This document shows, piece after piece, positions 20,563-33,876 of a DNA stretch of 64,000 nucleotides (position 1 is its first letter; the number at the start of each line of letters is the position of its first letter). Where the stretch lies: NCBI GenBank assembly GCA_963969395.1, contig OZ017795.1, positions 1,984,001 to 2,048,000 of the forward strand, in the 5' to 3' direction. The notes under the pieces were generated by a model, which did not search any database, was not told the origin of the DNA, and saw only the letters and a program-made list of their open reading frames with translations. This DNA comes from Pseudoscleropodium purum. Taxonomy: Eukaryota > Streptophyta > Bryopsida > Hypnales > Brachytheciaceae. The translations under genes and the position numbers were made by a program.

Positions 20563-20568
20563 TCTACA
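20563..20568. repeat. Target-site duplication, left copy
   Basis: TCTACA directly precedes the left terminal inverted repeat. The identical hexamer is at 33871-33876, directly after the right terminus. Confidence 0.75.
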
Positions 20569-20594
20569 ACTGATATTTAACTAATTATGGACAA
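20569..20594 (+). repeat. Left terminal inverted repeat
   Basis: It begins ACTG and continues ATATTTAACTAATTATGGAC. The right end read inward begins ACCT and continues identically. Similarity extends a further dozen bases (CATAGTCCA) if a 19-bp insertion at the right end is allowed. Confidence 0.85.
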
Positions 20595-21199
20595 ATCCAT
20601 AGTCCAGAAATATATCGGCCGTCAGTCGATATAGTCGAATGCATAGATTTGTGTGTCATAAGCAATGAACAAAAATGGATGCAACCACTAAACAAACCAA
20701 AGTACCACAACACACGGCAAGTTATTGAGTTCAAAGCCTACAATTAGTAGTTAAATGAATAATTTCATAAGCTCCTATGCTGTGTCCAAATTTGGAACAA
20801 AGTATCGGCTGACGCCTGATACTGCTAACCGATTCCTAACATCATTCTCTAAAGCACCTAGATCTATGAAAGTGTTTGCACTACGTAAACTATGAAAATC
20901 GACTATGGCAGCCATCTGTAAGATGAAGAGCAACGAATGCTCCTCCTTAAACCCTAAACCTTGAGTCCATCCGATCCAACTGAATTGCTCGTATCAGCTG
21001 GTAGTCAATATCCCCCCCAGAAAACTCCAGAGAACAGGTCTTGAAGTGAAGAGGCAGTCGATTCGATAATACTGGCGTTGACAATAAAGCAGTTCAAATT
21101 TGTGAATAAGGTAAAGGAGACGAGATTGGAAGGTATTCAAGCCCCCACGATTCCACTCTGTAAGGGTATCGGCTGGCGGCCGACACCATGTAGGGCAAA

Positions 21200-22020
21200 T
21201 CACCAGAATATCCCATTCCAGTTTGGCTTCCCGTACTTGATTGACTGTGCAACCTCATAGTGTAATTGTCCCGGTCTGATTGCGCCTTTCATGTATTCCG
21301 AGACTGACTCATGCTCGTGCATGGGATAAATGAATGGAATAATATCCGTTGAAATGTTCGGAATAACTCTACTAATATTCGGAAAATTGAGATCCCCCGT
21401 AAATGGTAGCGGAATATAGCACGCCGGATCCGGCGTCCTCCTGAGCGAAAGCGGGCACACATCGACCATGAGCACTTGGTTCGTGAAGCATGTCATCCTG
21501 GATGGTCTCTTAGTATATGAAGTATTGAGAGCATTTTGTAGCACCACGGGAAATTCTGGCTATCTACACAGTACTCTTTGCCATAAATGAACGCTAGGTT
21601 GTCTCTGACATGTTTTGGAAGCAAGTGCGCAAGCAGAGGCCTAAGATCCACTATTGGCATCCTGGACCAAATTCCTACGTGGAACTTTTCAAACAATGTC
21701 ATGAACATTGCAACTAGCCCTAGCCTTTTAATGACATTTCTGTGCGGGTCCGACTTGTCCACCGTGATATTCGGGTCGAGATAACAAAGTAGTCCCGTGA
21801 CGTATAGAACCACACATTTCTTGAACGACTGTGAATGGCCCACGTTGGACTCTTGAACAGAACATGAGTTAGTAGCTACAAGATTATACAACATCAACAT
21901 CCACTGAAAGAAGGCAAGCCAGTTGATATCGGCTGGCAGCCGATACTGCGGCCTGACACACGACAGCATCCAATAATTCATATTGAGAAACAAACAAAAG
22001 GTGCCAGATAGATTGTGCAC
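21200..22020 (-). pseudogene. FCP1-like HAD domain gene (HAD-1), catalytic Asp absent, frame broken
   Basis: The upstream frame (to 21493) carries the first half of an FCP1/NIF-type HAD fold: VVLYVTGLLCYLD where DxDxT is expected, then FEKFHVGIWSRM (motif II Ser present), and LLPKHVRDNLAFIYGKEYC. The second half, NQVLMVDVCPL followed by a proline-rich stretch, is in another frame (21547-21200), so a frame change lies between about 21493 and 21547. Both motif I Asp residues and the second Asp of the usual VDD are missing. It resembles the HAD at the end of the adjacent ParB-like gene, so the two probably arose by duplication. A palindrome at 21927 may lie in an unrecognised intron. The true start is unclear. 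Confidence 0.6.
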
Positions 22021-22303
22021 AGATGAGTGAATGCCTGCACCTACATTATTGCGATCACTTGATTAGAATGACCAAGACCTAATGCTGAAACTCTCAAAGG
22101 AAACATTTGAATGCTTTGAGAGTGAGTGTCCCATGTGCAAGCTTTAGGAAAGATCGGACTGAAATGCCTTCATTACAAGAAAATTGATTAATCAATACAA
22201 AAGAAAATAATGTACACAAAAGATGTAGTCTCTAGACGTCCTCCTTTATCTACAGAGAATATATACAATCTACAGAAATATGTGTCGGCTGGTAGCCGAT
22301 ACA

Positions 22304-25300
22304 CTACGCCTCCTCCATTAGGACCCGTGGGCTAGGAATTCCCATGGCCTGCAGCTCCTCCAGTGAATATGGCACCTCGAATCCCTTTTGATATGGCGGT
22401 GTCACATTCACGAACTGATTATGAAGAGGAGAGCTCGGCATATAGCGTGCACTCCCAACTGAAGAGTTCTTTTGACAGAACTCTGGGACCGTGAGTCTCG
22501 AAGACAAAAACCGTTCAATGAACGGGATGAGCTTCGCTTGGAGATAAGGCAGTTTTCCACCCTTCAGCAAACCCTCCGAATACATAGTAACCGGGGGTGG
22601 ATGAATCGCACTATATGGCTGATTCAAAATGTTCCGATAGGGCTTGTGATCCACGATCAATGAGTTGCTGATCGTGGCCCCATTATCGTACAAGGAGGAT
22701 GACTCGAGAATCCTTGCGAGACGCTTCAGAAAAATTGGTCGTGTGGGATTCTGAGGGTCTCGATAAGCACTCTCATCACAATAATCCTGTCCAAAAGCCA
22801 GGTAATTGTCTCCGATATCCGGCGCCATCCATTTCAGGTTATGAAGACGCTGCTCAAGAGTCTTCTTGGATAAATGCGACCAATAAACGATCTGAATGTC
22901 CTGACCCTTACAGAACCTGATGAACTCTTGAAGACCTGGTCGAGGTCTTACTTGCGACCTCTGATGCATACTTTTCCCTTTAAAAATAAAGGGCTCATAG
23001 AAGAGCAGAGTTCCCTGAACCTCAAGGAAAAGAAACAACTTCGAAGTCGCTACCTGAGACGGGCCAACACTAGACGTGTTCCCTGCCCTTTCTTCTAGAG
23101 CTGGTTTGTTACACTCCTGTCCACCTTCAAACGCGGTGGCGGGGAATTTCTCAAAAGTTTTGGAGTCATCATCTGCATTGCAAAACGAAATACATAGAGT
23201 ATGAGAAGCAATGAACTTAGGTACATGACAAAACATTCGTGCACTGTATCGGCTGGCAGCCGACACAGTCCATAAGTACTCTAGTCTGCCGAGATGAAGG
23301 CTCCTACTGAAAAGTCTATGCACAAGTCTGAGTCGTATGCTACGTATATATGAGCTATTTTAGATACTCCACAAACATCGCGGAGCATGTCTATCGCCTA
23401 CGAACCTCCAGTCTGAGCCCGCCTCTGAGATCGAGCGGGAGACATCGCTTCATTTGGGAAGTCCTGTTTCCGCGCCACCGCGCCACCGTCTTCCTCGTCA
23501 CCTGGTTGTTTCCGCTTTTGCTGAACCCGAGTTGACCTCCGCGAGTCCGCCGACTCCGACTCCTTTTCGACCGTGGCCCCCTTGCTTCTTCCCCGTCGTG
23601 GTTCAGGCGGGGAAACCACCATGGGTGTCGGCTGGCAGCCGATACTAATGTCAGCTGCAGTAGCCGGGCGGCCCATTGCAGTGACTCCCACTTGAGGCTC
23701 TGTCGTAGGACTGACCACTGGAGCCTGTGGAATCCTGCGAATCTCCTCTGACGGTGGCTGAACGTGCAAGTCCACGACCATTGCGACCGATGAATTTTCC
23801 GGTCGGAGCATCCCGAGCGGCTCCGAATTTGGAGCCGGGGGGAGATTGAGAGAACGCCGCGGAGATGAAGGACTTCGTTTCCGCTGCCTTCGAATGAGTG
23901 TCTCTTCCGGGGTGCCATCACTGTTTGAGTCAATCAGAAACGTCTTAATTGCTGGTCGCTCTTGAGACTGACCCTGCGGCGGTCTCCGCGCTGCCGCGCC
24001 ACCGGAAGTCTCCATCAGATTGAGGGTTGAGATCGGCCGCGGTTGCTGATGTAATGCCGCAGGCGACACTTGCACCGATCCGCTTGCGCCCCCCCGGTCT
24101 GTCAGCGCAGGCGTCCCCGAAGAAGGTCTCAAGGAAGCCGAGGAGCCGAGGTTCATTCCCCTCACACGTTCCGTGGCCTTCTGCAATCCGTCCTCCTCCC
24201 GAACGAACTCCATGACGGCCCGCCCATTCCTCTGCGAACCCATGGAGTACAAGTGAGTAACATGTTGTATCGACTGCCAGCCGACAGGATTTCACTTCCT
24301 CTGAACAATGCAAATGTGAGGAAGGGATAGGAAAACTTACCAGAGCGATCTCCGTGATGTTCCCACCCCCCCAGATGTTGATGACGGTGGCATCCTTGGA
24401 TTTTAGGGTCGGCATCATCAGTTTCTCTAGAAGTCCATGACCAACCCCGCACATCCCGCCATTCCAGTCGACCTCGCCCTCAACGTCGACAACTCGACAT
24501 TGAACCAGTCGGGCGCCTTGTTGATCCCAGTGAAGCGCTTGAAGACCGGGAAAATACTGGACCTGTCCTCGGGCTTCGGGAAGGTCAATGACAGAGTGAC
24601 CAAAGGCATGGATTCAGTCTCCGCCTTCTGAAAGCCTCCACGAGGAGATGGTTGATAGTACACCGAATGGTAGTACCAGGAGGACGAGGACGAGTACGAG
24701 GCCGTCGCGACAGAATCTCGGAAACGCGAGTTCCCGATAAGGAGCATTGGCATGGGGATGTACGCTTCGGTCTCTTCGATATTCGGACCATCCACCTCAG
24801 GGATTTCAGCGGCCAATGCTAGATTGAGCAGATCGTTCTTGTTCACTAGAACCGGTTCCCCCATATCTGTATACCCAAAGAGGACAATGAATTTTTTGTC
24901 CTCGGGTTCCAGCGCCATATTCCCCTTCGATTGACGGACGAAGTCGACCACCTTAGGAATACTCTCTCCGACATAGCATTCGTATTTCAGGTCGGCGGAT
25001 TTCCCACGCGTCGGAGGCATTTCGACTTTGGCGTAGTTCGCCAACGTCGTGAAGAAGACCCCCGGTGCCTTGCCATCCTTCGACTTGTCCGTCGTTGGAT
25101 TCATAGGGTTCACTCGCCCCTTCAACCAGTTGTTGGCGTCCGTGAACTTCATCATGTCCTTCCAGACGTTTTGGACTACGGCCGCTGAGTACCCCTCCTT
25201 TTCAGCGAGCTCCATCCAATACTTGTCAGTATATGGGGTCCAATTCTGACCCTTGCAGGGAAGGGGATGCTTCTTCCTGGTCCACATGATCTCGTTCATG

Positions 25301-27220
25301 ACGATTCTGTCCAGCTTTTTGTCCTTGCACCAGTCGAAGAGAGTGATCTTCCTCGAGGACTTGGCCTTCGCGGTGTTCTTGATGCTCATGCAAAGTGCAA
25401 CGATCTCCCGCCCTAGCTCGCACAGATCCGAATCCCGAAGCCCCAGCATTGGCGTGAGATCCGTTTTGGTGATGTGAGTGAGCGGCTTCCGATTGACGAG
25501 GAGATTCGGCACAGTCCCATCATCTCCAATAAGCTCCCCGTTCTCCCACGCATCGAAGACCTCCATCCATAGCACCCAGGTGGTCTCCTTGATAAAGATG
25601 AGGGGCAACTTGGAGGACACCTTCTCATCCACGAAGTGCGCCATCACCTTCAGCTTCGCAGCCTGGAGGAGTTCCACTGCAATGTTTAGAACATGCGAGA
25701 ATGGTATCGGCTGCTAGCCGATACATAATATATTAATCAAAAGGGAGAAAAAAATAAAGGTGCGTGGGAATTACCTCAAATTCTGTTGACGGCTTTCCAC
25801 CTCCACGATGCGGCTCTGGGCACCCCGCTTGCACCCACGCCGCTCTTCCCATCTCTACGTAGGATCTGAAGGTCTCCTTTGCCACTTTCTCCGTGATGTT
25901 GAGATTGAGGGCATTGGAGACTCTGACGAGTGTGTCCGGGTCTCTACTGAATACCGGAATGACCTCGAACTCCAGGAGGTCGGTTTTGGCTTCAGAGCCG
26001 TCCGGATATTGCTCGGCCAATTCTCGACAGGCCGTCACTATGTGTTGCCCACCAATGATATACCAGTGGACATTTGGCGCCTTCCACCACGGCATTGAGA
26101 TGCCGTCGACAACAACAGTCTGTTCCTTCCCGGGACACTCATCCATCACGGCATCTAGCCCTTTGTCTGTTGGCAGTGGAACCCGCTTCAGAGGAATCCC
26201 ATGGATTTCCGGCTTCTTCCTGATGGACCCGTATCCCTTGTACATGGTCTTCACCTGAATTGAGAGAAGGCCAAAATATTAAGGACCAGCTACAGATGTT
26301 GGCTGCCAGCCGATACATTATATGGGAAGATAAAAACCAATAAAGGATGGAAGTAATCGTCGAATTACCTGGCCAAGTCGGTCCTTTGCAATCTTCCGAT
26401 ACTTCAACTCGTCCGGTGCAATGTGGAATTTGTCCGAGTGAATGACCCCCGGAAGACGCTGCTTTTTGTAAGGAAACGCATGTAGGAGCCCCGTTTCCAA
26501 CACGTGGTAAATAGCGTTCACCTCGTTCTCCTTCGTCTTGGTTGTGAGATGATTTCCACGCCGGAGTGCCTCGTCGAGTGTCAGCTTCAGCGGCTTGTTG
26601 GGGTTGTCCCTGGCCTTCGCTTTTCTCTTCGGTTTGCTGGGCGACCTGGTCTCTTGCAGATCAGTAGCAGCGACTTCAGTCACTCTCGCCGCCACTTTCT
26701 TCCTCGCCGAGGGTACCTTTTTCTTCCCCTTTTCCAACTCACGAGTGATGAACGCATTGTGTTCATCGCGCTCTATCTTCAAGCACTCCCAGCCCTGGAT
26801 GAGCTCCTCTGCACTAGACGGCGTGTTTCCCTCGAACGTCATGCCCATCGACATTGACTTCTCTCCACAGACCTCCTCCGTGCACTTGTTCACTAGCAAC
26901 TCCACCGTGAAATAATCGGCAACTCCATCCGTGTTTTACAGTGGCATCAAGCATATCATGACGTGCACGGAATCGCCAACAACCATGACGGACAGTACAC
27001 TTCCTTTGCCAGGGGTCATGTTCCCTTTCAGCTTGAAGGAGCATACGATCTCCACTATCGTGTCGGGTAACTGCCTCCAACACAGACCCCATTCTTGGAT
27101 GGCCTCGATCGCTCGCCATGTTGCCCTCGGTGGATACCCGTCTCCCAATATCCGAGAGTTTGGGATTTGCTCACCCAGAAGGCGGGCCAAGAGAGTCGGT
27201 TTCCTACAGAACAATACAAT
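22304..27220 (-). pseudogene. ParB/Srx-like domain plus FCP1-like HAD protein gene, interrupted
   Basis: Minus-strand exons are about 27220-26369, 26254-25775, 25662-24341, 24231-23406 and 23172-22304, giving roughly 1,440 aa if continuous. The first exon has an in-frame TAA at 26936-26938. The second holds a ParB/sulfiredoxin-like motif (WYIIGGQHIVTACREL, then FEVIPVF and a helical tail). The third is an unrecognised domain rich in charged residues; its length is not a multiple of three and its frame changes near 24480-24500. The fourth is Pro/Ser/Arg-rich and looks disordered, with basic clusters such as RRQRKRSPSSPRR that suit a nuclear protein. The last exon is FCP1-like: KLFLFLEVQGTLL (DxD replaced by ExQ), RPRPGLQEFIRFC, IVYWSHLSKK, LIVDHKPYRNIL. 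Each of the four introns contains one 19-bp palindrome. The upstream start is not resolved. Function is unknown; binding the palindromes is a hypothesis. Confidence 0.75.
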
Positions 27221-27495
27221 TGAATTCTCACTACACTCACACTATGCACCTTCACTTTGTGCATCCACTGTATCGACTGCCAGCCGATACAACCTCTCAG
27301 TCCCTAAACCCTACCGTCGGAAGACATTTCTAGAAATTCCTAAGTCGGTTTCCTACAGAACAATACAATTGAGTTCTCAGTACACTCACACTATGCACCT
27401 TCACTTTGTGCATCCACTGTATCGGCTGCCAGCCGATACAACCTCTTAGTCCCTAAACCCTACCGTCGGAAGACATTTCTAGAAATTCCTAAGTC
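27194..27495. repeat. Tandem duplication, 149-bp unit x2, each with one palindrome
   Basis: The units begin at 27194 and 27343 and are nearly identical. Each includes AGTCGGTTTCCTACAGAAC, a palindrome copy and a GGAAGACATTTCTAGAAATT end. On the minus strand each unit carries the CTGTAG splice acceptor that opens the first visible exon of the ParB-like gene, so the duplication also doubled the acceptor. Confidence 0.9.
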
Positions 27496-28985
27496 AACCG
27501 TCCCGGGATCATATCGGCTGCCAGCCGACATAGCTTAAGCTCAGGCTCCTAGTGAGTGCTGCAATGTATGTCGGCTGCCAGCCGATATAGCAAGTAATAG
27601 GGGCCTCAGAATCTCAATGGCTATCCTATATGATATAGCAAATGACAGTGTATCGGTTAGCAGCCGATACATATAGTGAAAAGTACCTCTCAGTCGCCAA
27701 ATCGGAGAACACCATCGCCAATGGACTCTGTCGCTTATCGGCTGCTGAAGATGACTTGTCGGCTGTTGAAAAAACACGCTTGCCTCGCTCTCCTTCACTG
27801 CCGGCTGGCCAGAAATGCGTATCGGCTGCTCTAGGATGTATCGGCTGCTGCTTTGCTTTGCGAGGGGATGTCAGCTGCAAGCCGGACTGAAGGAGGGAGA
27901 ATAGCAGAGTGAGAGTGAGTGAGGCTGAGAGTGAGTGAGAGTGAGTGAGAGTGAGAGTGAGTGAGAGTGAGTGAGAGTGAGTGAGAGTGAGAGTGAGTGA
28001 CAGAAAGAGAGCAGGAGACGCAAATGGAAAATGAGAGAAAATGAAAGTGGCCAGGGGTGTATACCTCCTAAACCCTCGGCTGCCAGCCGGTAGGCACAAT
28101 TATGACAAACCGAATCCGTTCTTCCATAAATTTCATCCATCGCAGGTTTTCATCCGTTAGCATGTACTCCACATCCAGCAAAATACATGGAAGTTACGAA
28201 CACTCATTGCAGAGATGCGTACGTTTCCCAACATGATCTCCCGATGCACGGACTTGTCTCTCTTGCAATCACCACAACTTCATCCTCTTCCAGATTCAAA
28301 TTTCAGGCGCCAAATTCAGTTTCAGGCTTGCTCACCTAGGATCAGATCTTGGAGGACTTCCATTTTCATTTTCATTTGCCCCACACACGCACTCAGAGCG
28401 TCCAAGAACCGTCAGGGAATTGCAGTGGCTTGTTGTGGAATGTTTATGAGGGATGCAACGTGACAGGGAATTCAGTAGACCTCAGTTCAGTGCAGCATTG
28501 AGTAGTCTCCGGGTTCAGGAAGCGCTCTTCGACAGTTGTTATTTGGCGTTTAGGCTTACGTAGGATTTGCAGTGGGATTTGAATTGCTCCAAGCTACATT
28601 TGAATTGCAGTAGGATTCTAATTGCAGTAGTAGTCAGGAGCATTCTCGGAAATTAGTTGCCTGACAGAGGTTTAGGATTTCCTATTCGGTTGCACATGTG
28701 TTTCCATTTCATTATTTTTACTGGTCAGAGCATTTGTGGACAGTGCCTAGATCATAGGAAGCGCAAAATCTAGCTTCGTGCATGATCTCCAAAGTTCTAG
28801 CTGTACAGTCCTGCCTCTGTGCTTTGCCGTACGGACAGTGGTATCGGCTGCCAGTCGATACCAATTTCTGTACCAGGAAGGTCGTGAAGCACCAGGTACA
28901 CAAACATATCGGCTGCCAGCCAATAAGGTCATCACGGGTCTGACAGAGATTCCGACATTGTGGGTTCTGACTCCGATTTCAAATC
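27221..28985. promoter_or_regulatory. Central divergent intergenic region of the transposon
   Basis: This region lies between the minus-strand ParB-like gene and the plus-strand transposase. It holds eight palindromes (27271, 27420, 27512, 27569, 27651, 28074, 28842, 28907), a cluster of half-sites at 27736-27850 and a GAGT microsatellite. Both genes must be promoted from here, so the palindromes are placed where they could act as operators. No clear TATA box was found. Short open frames here read only palindromes and low-complexity sequence. Confidence 0.6.
27907..28010. repeat. GAGTGAGTGA microsatellite
   Basis: Irregular iterations of GAGT and GAGA make a purine-rich tract on the plus strand. 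It lies in the divergent promoter region of the transposon. Confidence 0.9.
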
Positions 28986-31900
28986 ATGAGTGGATTTGAT
29001 GACTGGACATCGGGTACGAATCCTATTGAGGCATTCACGAAAAATGGAGGCTCGGGAAGACTGAAAATGCAGAAGGGAGTTGTTGTGGCTCTTACACTAG
29101 AAGGATTATACTACTCCGGAAGGGCGGTCGTAGAAAGGGTGGTGAGCCGCGATCCCTACCTCGTATGCGTTCATGTCCTAGACGTTCCAAATAACCTCGA
29201 TATGCCTCTTCCGTTTCCTGAGGGAGACATGGTGTTCCTGCGACACTACCCGGGAAGGTCAATCGTGTGGGAGGCAGAGAACATCTATCCCCATGCAGAG
29301 TCTGAAGGGTCTTCTTCTGCTAGTGTCGGCCGGCAGCCGATACAAGTGGTCACAGATGAAAAACCCATCCAACAATTCCTGTCACTCACTGTCAATATGG
29401 ATGTCTCACTACTGCAGACTGTGGGCACGGATCTGTTGTATGCTGGTGTAGGTACAATTGTACAATGCTCTCCGAAGGTTTACTGGGAAGGCTTTCGCGT
29501 TCCACACAGCTTCTTCCTCGTTGTGAAGCTATTGAACGTCGTCGATGATTTCCAGGATCAGATTGCTTATTGCGAGATTCCTGAATTCATGACACTCAAA
29601 CGCTGTGTTGGATTCAAAATACTCTAGAGTGGTTATAAGGTCAGACCAATTGAGACCTCCGTCCCAATAACCAAGGTTGTCGGCTGCCAGCCGACAGGAG
29701 AACCTACGACCCATTTCATGCAGGCTCAAGTCGATGGTAACTACGAGAGTGGTGGGAGTTCGAACGATGTACAAGTAGAATTATGTGATCTGGGAACACA
29801 GCGAGTACTTCCTACTGCATCAGATGAAGACGAGCGAGATGATAGGCTCTATTCGTCCGACGATGACAGCTGCGGGTCTGCAGAGGATCACCGTGATGTT
29901 CATGGTTGCAGTACCTCTGGCACTGTCGTGTCCGACACAAGTGTTGCTGACAGCATGGATCATTCGGACGCGTTTAGAGCTGATACTCAAAGTGGAGATA
30001 ATGGCCATCCGAATGGAATGCAAGCTGGGCTTCCAATCCCAAATAGACCGCTCTAGAGAAATCAATATTGTGAACTTCTCAATGACGACTTCTCGGTTCT
30101 CGGAAGAGCCATGATCCAAGTCTGCCTACCAGATGAGGCCTGCAATGATGGCGTCCTGAACGACACGGATGTCGGGGTCATGTTCGTATCGGACAATGAC
30201 GAACTGCAAATGACAACCATGCGCTGGAGGCTCACACACACAAGGTTGGAGGGTGGAAGGCTACTATCTAAAATTGTCACGCTCTGCTCAGAGGCTGCTC
30301 TATTGAATGAGTCGGACGATAACGGAATGCAGGGGGTACTGAGGAATCCATACCGCTCTGTGCGCAGAAGGGTGATTCCTAAGGATCACGAAAGCCAATC
30401 CAGGCTGCAAGTGAAGACCTCGGAGACAGAGGTACGTAAGGTCAGCTCACAGAAGTGCTGTAAGCTCAGATGTTGCTAGACGTTTCCCTGGGAGGACACG
30501 AGGTCTATACGACGAAAGTTCTTCGCTTGCACATTCGAGAGTAGGAGGGAGGTAGCGTATGCGGTGCAGAGTCAGCTTCATGCAGGGGTTATTCCAGGAA
30601 AAAAATTCATTACTCTTGCAAATACAGACGTCTGCGAGAACGCATGGTATATCATTCACGCGGTATCGAGGTCGGCCTATCATGTTTACAAGGCTGTGGC
30701 CGTGGGAGGATCCGTTAACGGCTCGCATGGAAATGCGGGGGCCCGACGGCCACGGCCACAAACAATCCAAGCTCAAGCAACCCTCAAAACGATCATCGAC
30801 GACAATGCTGACAAAATGCCAAACGAGTTCAGAATGGTTGGAAATAAACGCGTCGACAATCTCAAGGTCCTCCCCTTTGCAATGAATTGGGATCACATGC
30901 GCGAACAAGTCAATTATGTAAGTCCATCATCTGCCTCTTCATCTACAGTAGAAAAGTCCTTTTATCGGCTGCCAGCCGATACAATCATGTCTGGACTTTG
31001 AATGGAGAAGCCATTGATCTTTCCTTTCTATAGGCTGTCATTTGCAGTTCTGTCGGTTGCCAGCCGATACAACTCTATAGTCTTCCATGGAAACTCATCC
31101 ATGAAGTCATGTTCTTCAGGTCAATGGAATATGCAATATGAAGCCGGTCTCGTAGTCTGCTATCAGCCGCCTTTGGAATGTTCATTTCAAAAACGTAGAG
31201 GTCAAGGCCGTAGGGAGCAATTTCTCAAAATGTACAGAACGTGACTTCCTGGTAGAGTTCATTGCAAAGTATCCAAGAGGTTGTGATGAGTGGCAAGCCT
31301 TGGTCGATGACAGAGAGAGACATCTCAATTACCAATGCGCTTGTAGAAATGTATACAGTGGATGGACCGTGCAGTCGGTGCAAAATCCATCAGAGTTCCT
31401 TTGCATTATTCATGACAAAATGGACACCACAAAGACTGCCATTCCGAGGATGCAGCGCATCACCAAGGCCACCGCAGGGCTAGGGCAAATACCAATCTCG
31501 TGTACTGGAATGCTCACACATGGACATGGAGATGGCGCGTATGCACATTTCTCCACATCACTCTGGCCTGGGGATTCAAATTTCACAATTTCGTCCATCT
31601 GTAGGGTCCTCAGGGCCCTAGAACTACCACCTGTTCGGGAGTCCAAGATCCTCTTCTCGACTCCACCGCTAAACGCCTTCTTCGAGGCTCTGCTTCATGG
31701 GAAATCGAGATGTAACTCGTCAATCCCGCAGGCCTCGGACATGGTGATCGACGCAGCGAGACCAGGACGACTTCAGGTCCCACTTCCGAGGAAACTGTTC
31801 TTGCAACTCGACAATTCAGCAAAGGACAACAAAAATTGATTCCTCATGGCTTTCTGCTCACTGCTCACTGCTCACTGCCAGGCGCATATTCAAGGAAGTT

Positions 31901-33145
31901 TCAGTGGGGTTCCTTATTGTCGGGCATACGCACGAGGACATTGATGCGCACTTTAGTTATCTCTCGAAACTGATCAAAAGGAAGAACACATACGTACTTG
32001 CGGATCTCATGAAGGCGTTCATGGATCCACAGAAGACTGTAGCCTTCATTCTGGAGTTCGTGCAAGAAGTGGTGGACTTCAAATCATACTTCAAGGGCTT
32101 CCCTCATGATGGGGTGAACAAAATCATCGGGCTCGGAGATAAACACCTCTTCAAGTTCTACGTCGTGGAGGATGGTGTGGATCGTGGATGGCCGGTCATG
32201 AGGTACAAGCTCAGGGCCACAGATTCTTCGTGGCTGCCTCCTGGCGCACCTGTCAAAATGTGGACAGCGGACGAAAATGGACAACCCAATATTCCACAGG
32301 GGGACCCTCGACCTGTGCCTTTCAAGGCACTCTGGGGGAATGTGGACATTAATACCAGAAGGCGAAATGCAGAAAAAGAAGTCGCAAGGGCTACAGAGTG
32401 CAATGAGAAACAGACATTCATCAAAAACGGAATAGCAAAGTTCATTCAGTTCTGGAAATCGGGAATGGCTAGAGATAGACGGTACGCACAGGAAATGGCA
32501 GGCTGTGTGGCTTACTGGGAAAGAATTCAATCGAAGATCAATTCGGCGTTGCCTCAAACTCCTGCATTGCTTCAAGAAGGATTATGGCCGCTCTCTGACT
32601 GGACAAAAGATCACACGTCGACTTTTGTAGACAAGGGGGCAGAGGAGAATTATTTAGTAGACACCACTCCGGAGGACGAAGGGGATCCCACTCCATACTG
32701 CGGACCTGCGAAGGACAGGCCGCGCTTGAGATTCAATCCATTCAGGGATGTTCTGCTCGGAGACTTTGTTCTTTGTCGACCATGTCACAACAATCATCTG
32801 CCTGTCTGGCTGGGACGGGTACTCCAATGTGTGGACATGTCTCCGGGGCCCACGTATGGTAATTTTAAAATTGAGTGGTGGACTCTGATGAAAGCCAAGA
32901 GGGAGTCAAAAGCGCTCATTGCGAGGGAGTGCTGGACCCGAAGATGGCACAAGGAACTCTGTCTTCCGCAGATGGTCCATGTCAACAGTGTCTTGTACTC
33001 GCACAGAATGCCCTCGCACGCAAAGAAAGGACCTCCCACATCTCATGTCATCCCGAAGGCATCCGTTGCTGCTGCTATTGCGAATCTGGAGGCCGCGGGG
33101 ACAACTTTGGACAGAGATGCAGACGAGGGCGGAGAGGATTACTGA
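28986..33145 (+). pseudogene. DUF7869-type transposase (RNase H-like), decayed
   Basis: One frame runs from ATG 28986 to a GT donor at 30918, interrupted only by TAG at 29625, 30054 and 30477. An intron (30918-31119) carries two palindromes. The next exon (from 31120) has TAG at 31153 and TGA at 31837. A third copy of CTCACTG (31857-31877) then shifts the frame into the last open stretch, which ends at 33145. Landmarks: an acidic segment (DEDERDDRLYSSDDD), a Cys cluster (KCCKLRCC), VCENAWYIIHAVSRSAYHVYKA, DDRERHLNYQCACRNVYS, IHDKMDTTKTAIPRM, HGHGDGAYAH, LFLQLDNSAKDNKN and FLIVGHTHEDIDAHFSYLSK. The last blocks match the DUF7869 family, and the Asp residues in HDKMD, QLDN and HEDID are candidate catalytic acids. 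Total length is about 1,300 aa. Near the C terminus, LLGDFVLCRPC...VWLGRVL resembles a small SH3-like or chromatin-reader barrel. The in-frame stops make this copy inactive. Confidence 0.83.
30918..31119 (+). other. Transposase intron with two palindromes
   Basis: GTAAGT donor and TTCTTCAG acceptor. The flanking codons join in phase 0 to read VNY then VNGICNMK, as expected in this family. Palindromes start at 30963 and 31051. Confidence 0.8.
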
Positions 33146-33844
33146 CATATCGCCTCGAACCTATCGGTTGCCAGCCGATACAATAGTTTAGCTCTGGAGT
33201 TGTGTCACCATCACATTGCTAGACGAATCCGAGTCCTCGCTGCAGGTGTCGGCTGCCAGCCGATACTAAGGGCTCGCTGCATGTCGATTGCATGGTTCTT
33301 GAACAGGATGTTTTCACTTCAGGATGATTATATGCATATCCACAATATTTACTCATTTGTGGATGTGCCTTCATATCTTTTAGGGTGTGCCTTCATATCT
33401 TATAGGTTGTGACTATAAGTCTTATGACTAGTCAGTTTTGACATTTTTAATATGTATCCGTTGGCTGCTGACAAATCACATTTATTTGAATCTCCTATGG
33501 GGACCATGTTACAACTGTTTTATCTTCAGTGCACAGGCGATTTGCTCATTTCTCTATCTTTCATGTTCATTGTCTTGCTTTTTGGTTTTACGCACTTTAC
33601 TGTGCTGTCTTATCGGCTGCCAGCCTATATGTCAATGGGCACGGGATGGGTGCACGGTCATAGGCTCCGGTTCTGCTATTGCATAGAAACCGGTCCAAAA
33701 TACAACAATCCACTTTTTTTTTGTACCCTCGGTTCTTCTGAACAAGGTGTGGGTGGGCTGCCAACACTTTTTAATCATTTGAAGCATGTTCTCTACCTTT
33801 TTTAATGTAGCTATGGACTATGAATTTGTCCATAATTTGTGCAA

Positions 33845-33870
33845 TTGTCCATAATTAGTTAAATATAGGT
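33845..33870 (-). repeat. Right terminal inverted repeat
   Basis: Read inward it is ACCT then ATATTTAACTAATTATGGAC, matching the left end. A partial second TTGTCCATAAT at 33826-33836 shows a 19-bp internal duplication just inside the terminus. Confidence 0.85.
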
Positions 33871-33876
33871 TCTACA
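33871..33876. repeat. Target-site duplication, right copy
   Basis: TCTACA is identical to 20563-20568 and abuts the right terminus. Confidence 0.75.

Follow-up and report, generated by a model that had tools for sequence, protein, structure and literature searches.

The VANDAL transposons of Arabidopsis carry many copies of a short family-specific motif, mainly in non-coding DNA, together with a further gene beside the transposase. For VANDAL21 the motif is the 9-bp non-palindrome YAGTATTAY, which is read by VANC proteins carrying DUF1985, and VANC21 binds the non-coding DNA of introns, intergenic regions and termini, and coding DNA only weakly (PMC5735166). The motifs differ between related VANDAL families and are gained and lost in tandem arrays (PMC5735166; PMC10398659). 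A second described system is the 21.5-kb element Sola1-1_Ec32 of Ectocarpus, in which a ParB-like/methyltransferase gene lies opposite the transposase; its authors proposed that such accessory proteins may bind and modify their own element, and refer to similar algal proteins (Iyer 2011, Petroll) (PMC12477816). No target site is named for the Ectocarpus ParB-like protein in the available text of that report, and 'palindrom' is absent from its main text. The 13-kb element studied here, called W together with its family, lies in a window of 64 kb from the moss Pseudoscleropodium purum (contig OZ017795.1, 1,984,001 to 2,048,000). It contains two divergent genes pointing away from each other, one for a presumed DUF7869 transposase and one for a ParB-like protein, and a 19-bp palindrome repeated through its non-coding DNA. 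W resembles the VANDAL elements in its many copies of a family-specific motif concentrated in non-coding DNA, in the turnover of these in tandem arrays, in the different motifs of related families and in its further gene, and differs from them in having palindromes (19-25 bp here and in related families), a ParB-like protein and a DUF7869 (PF25273) protein as presumed transposase, instead of the Mutator-type VANA. It shares with Sola1-1_Ec32 the ParB-like accessory gene opposite the transposase, with an apparently degenerate HAD domain in place of the methyltransferase.

There is good support for the palindromes as a predicted array of recognition sites that avoids exons and would serve a protein of the element. 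The palindrome TRTCGGCTGSCAGCCGAYA (TATCGGCTGCCAGCCGATA) occurs at 24 places in the window (at most three mismatches; 0.01 expected in shuffles), all between 20613 and 33629 and none elsewhere in the 64 kb. The 47 strand matches reduce to these 24 places, with both strands matching at 23 and a partial site at 28074. The original prediction, made from the window alone, gave about 26 copies; the multi-copy palindrome is real, and the count is 24 unless half-sites near 27733-27880 are included. A cluster of half-sites (TATCGGCTGCT and similar) is seen at 27733-27900, upstream of the ParB-like start codon and beside a GAGTGA-type simple repeat. Exons make up ~8.3 of the 13.3 kb and hold only 3 of 23 palindromes (binomial P = 1.4e-6, with copies treated as independent), in agreement with the three copies predicted for roughly 9 kb of coding exon. 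All six modelled introns hold palindromes (5, 1, 1, 1, 1 and 2 copies), so that the claim of palindromes in every intron stands, with an extra 5' intron of five copies added to the five introns originally mapped; once the exclusion from exons is taken into account, this says little more. The regular presence of sites that had been proposed finds no support, their spacing in the window being irregular.

In the minus-strand ParB-like gene, palindromes lie in intron 1 (27204-27686; at 27271, 27420, 27512, 27569 and 27651), intron 2 (26255-26368; 26297-26315), intron 3 (25663-25774; 25705-25723), intron 4 (24232-24340; 24268-24286) and intron 5 (23173-23405; 23247-23265). The plus-strand DUF7869 intron (30918-31119) holds two, at 30963-30981 and 31051-31069. 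Copies at the divergent promoter and in both subterminal regions, also part of the original prediction, are seen at 28842-28860 and 28907-28925 (promoter/5' untranslated region; the unit of the former is tandemly duplicated in copies D and J), at 20613-20631 (45 bp inside the left end) and at 33611-33629 (242 bp inside the right end). Others lie in left and right non-coding DNA (21167-21185 and 33247-33265) and at 22283-22301 and 33162-33180, respectively 2 and 16 bp beyond the stop codons of the ParB-like and DUF7869 genes. One more (21927-21945) lies outside both gene models, in frame within a 189-amino-acid open reading frame (21493-22062, minus strand) between the ParB-like gene and the left end. 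The exonic copies, all three in one common reading frame, are at 23626-23644 in the ParB-like gene (coding IGCQPT) and at 29324-29342 (VGRQPI) and 29678-29696 (VGCQPT) in the DUF7869 gene. Taking the majority base of eight copies, 9 of 23 palindromes have perfect 9-bp arms, 9 depart only by A/G at arm position 2, and 5 depart otherwise. Information content is near zero more than 2 bp outside the 19 bp, and therefore the palindrome is not part of a larger repeat. Long palindromes with 0- or 1-bp centres, as found in these families, would fit a dimeric DNA-binding protein.

What we regard as decisive for a predicted recognition array is the comparison between families. A degenerate VGHTHEDID pattern, designed to skip the W family, matched 27 places, including three W copies with a changed codon. 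Four loci (L037, L042, L044 and L052; family 2) have transposases 54-72% identical to that of W in pieces of at least 100 amino acids, and 46-54% identical in some shorter pieces. The W palindrome (at most four mismatches) has 4, 11, 9 and 12 matches in these loci, compared with 0.4-0.85 in shuffles, and 0-2 in each of the other 20 non-W DUF7869 loci (0.45-1.05 in shuffles). Family-2 palindromes occur in the 3' region of all four loci and in the same intron as in W in three (not L037). This intron is a 50-bp-period palindrome array in L044 and L052, while L042 instead has a 35-bp-period array 5' of the gene; none of these arrays resembles the W intron. The site thus outlives the surrounding intron in a diverged family.

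One exonic palindrome, that at 29678, lies 54 nt past the same codon in W, L042 and L044. At this second DUF7869 exonic position, VGCQPT of W corresponds to SIG*WPT and SIGH*PT in family 2, to IGGPPT in Physcomitrium patens, and to VGCPPT in one Ceratodon protein and VSSKPM in the other. Family 2 has lost the first position, which codes VGRQPI in W and VGQQPI in its copy B; the P. patens protein has VGGPPI there, and each of the two from Ceratodon has VGCPPT. The perfect palindrome TGTCGGCGGNCCGCCGACA would code VGGPPT, P. patens and Ceratodon being known here from proteins alone. These mosses, P. patens and Ceratodon purpureus, are the source of all three named proteins among 11 database matches to the transposase. 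Another database protein, P0004, is 80% identical to W and contains CRLPAD and AGCQPI, near two reading frames of the palindrome, in an apparent translated intron; a search of viral contigs with P0004 found no relative. A genome scan with the family-2 centre ATCGGCTANTAGCCGAT (at most one mismatch) gave 80 matches against 0; those listed were mostly W-type variants, and the scan therefore says little on family 2. A search for terminal inverted repeats in family 2 gave one weak candidate in L042 and none in L044.

Genome-wide scans covered the 52 contigs (313 Mb) of assembly G000. A 15-bp W core (at most one mismatch) has 1,700 plus-strand places, compared with 1 for a reversed control (4 on the other strand). 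A search for copies outside such elements, put forward with the original prediction, found the sites concentrated in element copies: only 4 of 100 among the matches listed look isolated by eye, and one of these, fetched at C1:277793, is a DUF7869 exon fragment within an apparent copia element. This copia-looking element (L001:1395-1595; C1:276293-279307) contains pieces of W DUF7869 exon and two copies of an exonic palindrome.

Further families have palindromes of their own. Family 3 (L035, L036, L049, L051, L053, L054) lacks the W palindrome and has related ones, 3a (TCATCGTGAGATCTCACGATGA; L036, L051, L053) and 3b (CATCNGGAGATCTCCNGATG; L035, L049, L054), the patterns of which partly overlap. 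A first guess at the 3a motif, CTCAYRATGNCATYRTGAG, was replaced by TCATCGTGAGATCTCACGATGA. Read by eye, family-3 palindromes occupy the intron in all six loci but L051 and the 3' region in all but L054; the 3' sites of 3a are half-sites in a 28-29-bp direct array. The half-site has 1-6 matches per locus, compared with 0-0.2 in shuffles, and one each in the unrelated L046 and L052. Genome-wide, 3a has 117 matches against 0 for the control (at most two mismatches) and 3b has 80 against 2 (at most one mismatch), and among the matches listed a ParB-like or DUF7869 locus is no more than 25 kb away from 37 of 50 3a and 21 of 50 3b sites (0.67 expected for each). A 3a cluster at C44 encodes a ParB-like protein matching that of W (E 2.5e-8); the apparent introns of this gene contain 3a palindromes, and an array with a 74-bp period lies on its 5' side. 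Of 44 ParB-like loci of the 3a type, 15 have a divergent non-W DUF7869 gene at a distance of up to 35 kb, none a convergent one and one a same-strand one (~1.9 expected in all); the divergent two-gene plan of W is therefore common to older family-3 elements.

Two more families were recognised by their ParB-like genes. X is a ParB-like gene beside L044, and its 25-bp palindrome is present both in introns and in an array on the 5' side; this palindrome has 104 genome-wide matches against 0 for the control, and 48 of 50 sites among the matches listed lie within 5 kb of an X ParB-like exon. Y shares 36-40% identity with X over one exon. To test the prediction of a private palindrome, 3.5 kb of a single Y copy was fetched; it contains the 21-bp TTCAGCGCGANTCGCGCTGAA in both introns seen (three copies, 1-3 mismatches). 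This palindrome has 523 genome-wide matches against 0 for the control. Of 50 sites among the matches listed, 45 have a Y ParB-like exon no more than 25 kb away (0.37 expected), and 44 of these 45 are 5' of that exon. A universal ATC...GAT syntax, drawn from W, X, 3a and 3b, was rejected, as a strict scan was near-empty in decayed loci and Y does not fit. Separately, a perfect palindrome CATCGGGAGATCTCCCGATG is scattered over the genome (C1:1438758, C1:33330912, C40:37409405 and others) with no listed ParB-like or DUF7869 match nearby, and may mark a further family.

ParB-like genes accompany four palindrome types (W, 3a, X and Y), each present in introns or apparent introns and in 5' sites or arrays, and the motif IIxxQHxxxA is conserved in four families. 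DUF7869 accompanies the palindromes of W, family 2, 3a and 3b, and no own DUF7869 gene was seen in the stretches read for X (14.6 kb, ending in the family-2 gene) and Y (4.5 kb). Because of the four palindrome types with a ParB-like gene, and because no own DUF7869 was detected beside X and Y, the ParB-like protein is favoured as the probable reader, with somewhat better than an even chance, and the transposase would be an unlikely one.

The mechanism we propose is as follows. Each palindrome would be a binding site for a dimeric DNA-binding protein coded by the element itself, and with sites spread over the non-coding DNA this protein would recognise the whole element and little else. The large ParB-like accessory protein, whose gene and that of the DUF7869 transposase are transcribed in opposite directions away from each other, is its likeliest identity, and its likeliest job would be sequence-specific self-recognition, countering host silencing and/or regulating the element's own genes in a VANC-like manner. 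Since families have their own palindromes, rearranged by turnover of short tandem arrays, they would be separated from one another. We infer that the sites are bound, which protein reads them and that it counters silencing, VANC being the precedent for function. As a whole, this account of family-specific predicted recognition arrays with a ParB-like reader and a VANC-like role in anti-silencing and/or own-gene regulation stands at about an even chance. More tentatively, the palindromes may be DNA targets of the ParB-like accessory proteins found in eukaryotic transposons, and would then be the first such targets to be identified. They would form a parS-like self-marking system, in which every family within a single moss transposon superfamily would have evolved a private palindrome and a matching ParB-like reader that guards its own copies from silencing. 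No earlier report of such a palindrome/ParB-like/DUF7869 system was seen among the titles and abstract openings listed in literature searches, most subscription journals lying outside them. With the palindromes, one binding assay would suffice to test the self-binding proposed for ParB-like accessory proteins (PMC12477816, in its available text). This genome offers several candidate protein-DNA pairs with which to ask how a selfish element distinguishes its copies from host DNA and from related families and, if the proposal is true, VANC-like self-recognition has arisen independently and these families provide a set of long, non-overlapping DNA-binding specificities.

Several results weigh against this account. 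The check put forward with the original prediction asks whether palindromes keep their positions while the surrounding intron drifts. Positions are kept in eight aligned W copies (27271, in a tandem unit, is missing from four), and changes are commoner inside palindromes (131/3344) than outside (2245/100429), so that such a contrast found no support and within-family conservation was ruled out as proof of selection. The excess is due to CG/CHG context, changes in palindromes being mainly C-to-T/G-to-A (122 by context counts). Changes of the C-to-T type at CG are slightly lower inside than outside (34/752 and 650/10549, P = 0.07), those at CHG other than CCG slightly higher (69/696 and 550/7583, P = 0.013) and those at CCG equal (18/380 and 132/2796); the counts are 1/260 and 415/29872 at CHH, and 6/1332 and 291/50227 for changes at A/T sites. 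Since the inside rates approximate those of context-matched DNA outside, there is no sign of selection after insertion, and inserted sites have no protection from C-to-T decay. The W copies look methylated at CG and CHG.

Among the matches listed, 13 of 50 3a and 29 of 50 3b sites have no family locus nearby. Pairing of X-type ParB-like genes with DUF7869 is unclear (9 of 147, five divergent, one convergent and three on the same strand, against 4.2 expected). In two palindrome-bearing family-2 loci, reading over ~9 kb upstream showed no recognisable ParB-like gene of their own, which tells against a ParB-like reader; the test is weak, because the same W queries missed the X gene lying there beside L044. 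The ParB fold is not confirmed, as no Pfam or PDB sequence match of note was found, AlphaFold models of the protein have low confidence (predicted local distance difference test scores of 45 and 41), and these models gave no structural match by Foldseek or VIA-align.

The strongest alternative, which we consider unlikely, is that the DUF7869 transposase or a cofactor reads the palindromes to assemble a transposition complex. In CACTA elements, repeated short subterminal motifs are bound by the element protein TnpA; W likewise has repeated short motifs, with sites near both ends, and family-2 palindromes surround a DUF7869 gene with no recognised ParB-like gene of its own nearby. Unlike the CACTA motifs, which are near the ends, the W sites extend beyond them to fill the interior, chiefly the introns and the divergent promoter, and the X and Y sites lie in and 5' of a ParB-like gene with no own DUF7869 detected in the stretches read. 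That the palindromes are operators only, through which a self-made repressor or activator acts at promoters and introns to control copy number or expression with silencing unaffected, appears rather improbable. It agrees with the sites or arrays on the 5' side of genes in W, X, 3a and family 2, but simple control would seem to need fewer than the roughly two dozen sites of this 13-kb element, some of which are subterminal or far to the 3' side.

It is very improbable that the palindromes are targets of a host protein, such as a silencing or methylation factor. The CG/CHG C-to-T decay of W copies indicates that the host probably methylates them, but the sites are concentrated in elements, and a harmful host target should be lost, rather than kept and re-invented in each family. 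Hardly any likelihood attaches to a by-product of a mutational process, of tiny mobile palindromes inserting repeatedly or of RNA hairpins in splicing. Two palindrome-bearing units vary in copy number between W copies, and some palindromes arose via tandem duplication; against this origin for the whole set, the 19 bp have no shared flanks, sites are also present in promoter and terminal DNA, the three exonic sites share one reading frame, and arms separated by only 1 or 0 bp are ill suited to an RNA hairpin. Least probable of all is a partition or tethering system, which the co-occurrence of candidate palindromic sites with a ParB-like gene recalls, since, unlike bacterial ParB-parS, these are integrated eukaryotic elements that need no partition and have many family-specific sites each, the fold is unconfirmed, and no ParA-like gene was noticed, though no ParA search was made.

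From comparison of copies, the whole element spans 20568-33871 (13,304 bp), with ends AACTGATATTTAACTAATTATGGACAA ... TTGTCCATAATTAGTTAAATATAGGTT; the element predicted at 20613-33629 is thus real, with true limits slightly wider. The 27-bp terminal inverted repeats (20568-20594, plus strand; 33845-33871, minus strand) are alike in 25 of 27 letters, and are flanked by the target-site duplication CTAC (20564-20567 and 33872-33875). Sola1 elements make 4-bp target-site duplications, and this feature of the Sola superfamily is present in W, the duplications being identical in 7 of 8 two-ended copies, with 3 of 4 letters alike in copy D (read by eye). Neither Rfam nor a tRNA scan gave a match in the window, and a PHROGs search with five pieces found no match below 0.06.

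The ParB-like/HAD gene (22304-27715, minus strand; ~1,450 amino acids) was modelled from its frame and splice sites over eight copies as six exons (27715-27687, 27203-26369, 26254-25775, 25662-24341, 24231-23406 and 23172-22304), the first placed by eye. The acceptor of its 5' intron is kept in 8 of 8 copies, and the donor was placed by eye in the window alone. The frame is retained across the eight aligned copies, except for scattered stops and, in the window copy, an 8-bp insertion at 24486; this copy also has a stop at 26936. The protein carries the motif IIGGQH, and the ParB label given in the original prediction, where an array for an element-encoded protein was proposed, amounts to motif resemblance only; the predicted array itself is upheld by the concentration of sites in elements, their depletion from exons, the bare 19 bp, the persistence of the site in a diverged family and the other families' own palindromes. 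NIF phosphatase (PF03031) matches the last exon with E 2.3e-4 and 21.3 bits, under the 21.8 cut-off. The catalytic motif of NIF/HAD phosphatases is DxDx(T/V), and this exon reads LEVQGTL instead, so the HAD/NIF domain looks degenerate. Protein-database searches with W residues 200-700 and X residues 120-700 gave zero matches. DUF1985 had no match in the exon pieces scanned, which for the minus-strand gene included exon 2 from its 89th amino acid onwards and a small part of exon 5, and Pfam found no methyltransferase domain in the pieces of the ParB-like gene scanned. By eye, ATVINIWGGGNITEIALRNGRAVMEFVREEDGLQKATERV at the exon 4/5 junction (24100-24400, minus strand) looks like a degenerate motif I of N4/N6 methyltransferases; this candidate was unsupported by Pfam or PDB sequence search.

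The DUF7869 gene (28986-33145, plus strand; exons 28986-30917 and 31120-33145) presumably encodes the transposase. Two pieces match PF25273 with E 3.8e-19 and 4e-11 (69.5 and 43.3 bits, cut-off 26). In the window copy it has stops at 29625, 30054, 30477, 31153 and 31837, and a 7-bp insertion at 31854 common to copy G; neither gene of this copy is intact, and the other copies lack most of its stops. Of 150 scored matches, ~119 belong to the W family (69-77% identity; count by subtraction), and ten of these have a 677-amino-acid open frame with a match free of stops. A large share of old, stop-ridden DUF7869 and ParB-like copies is found on contig C49 (12.7 Mb), possibly a sex chromosome or other low-recombination contig.

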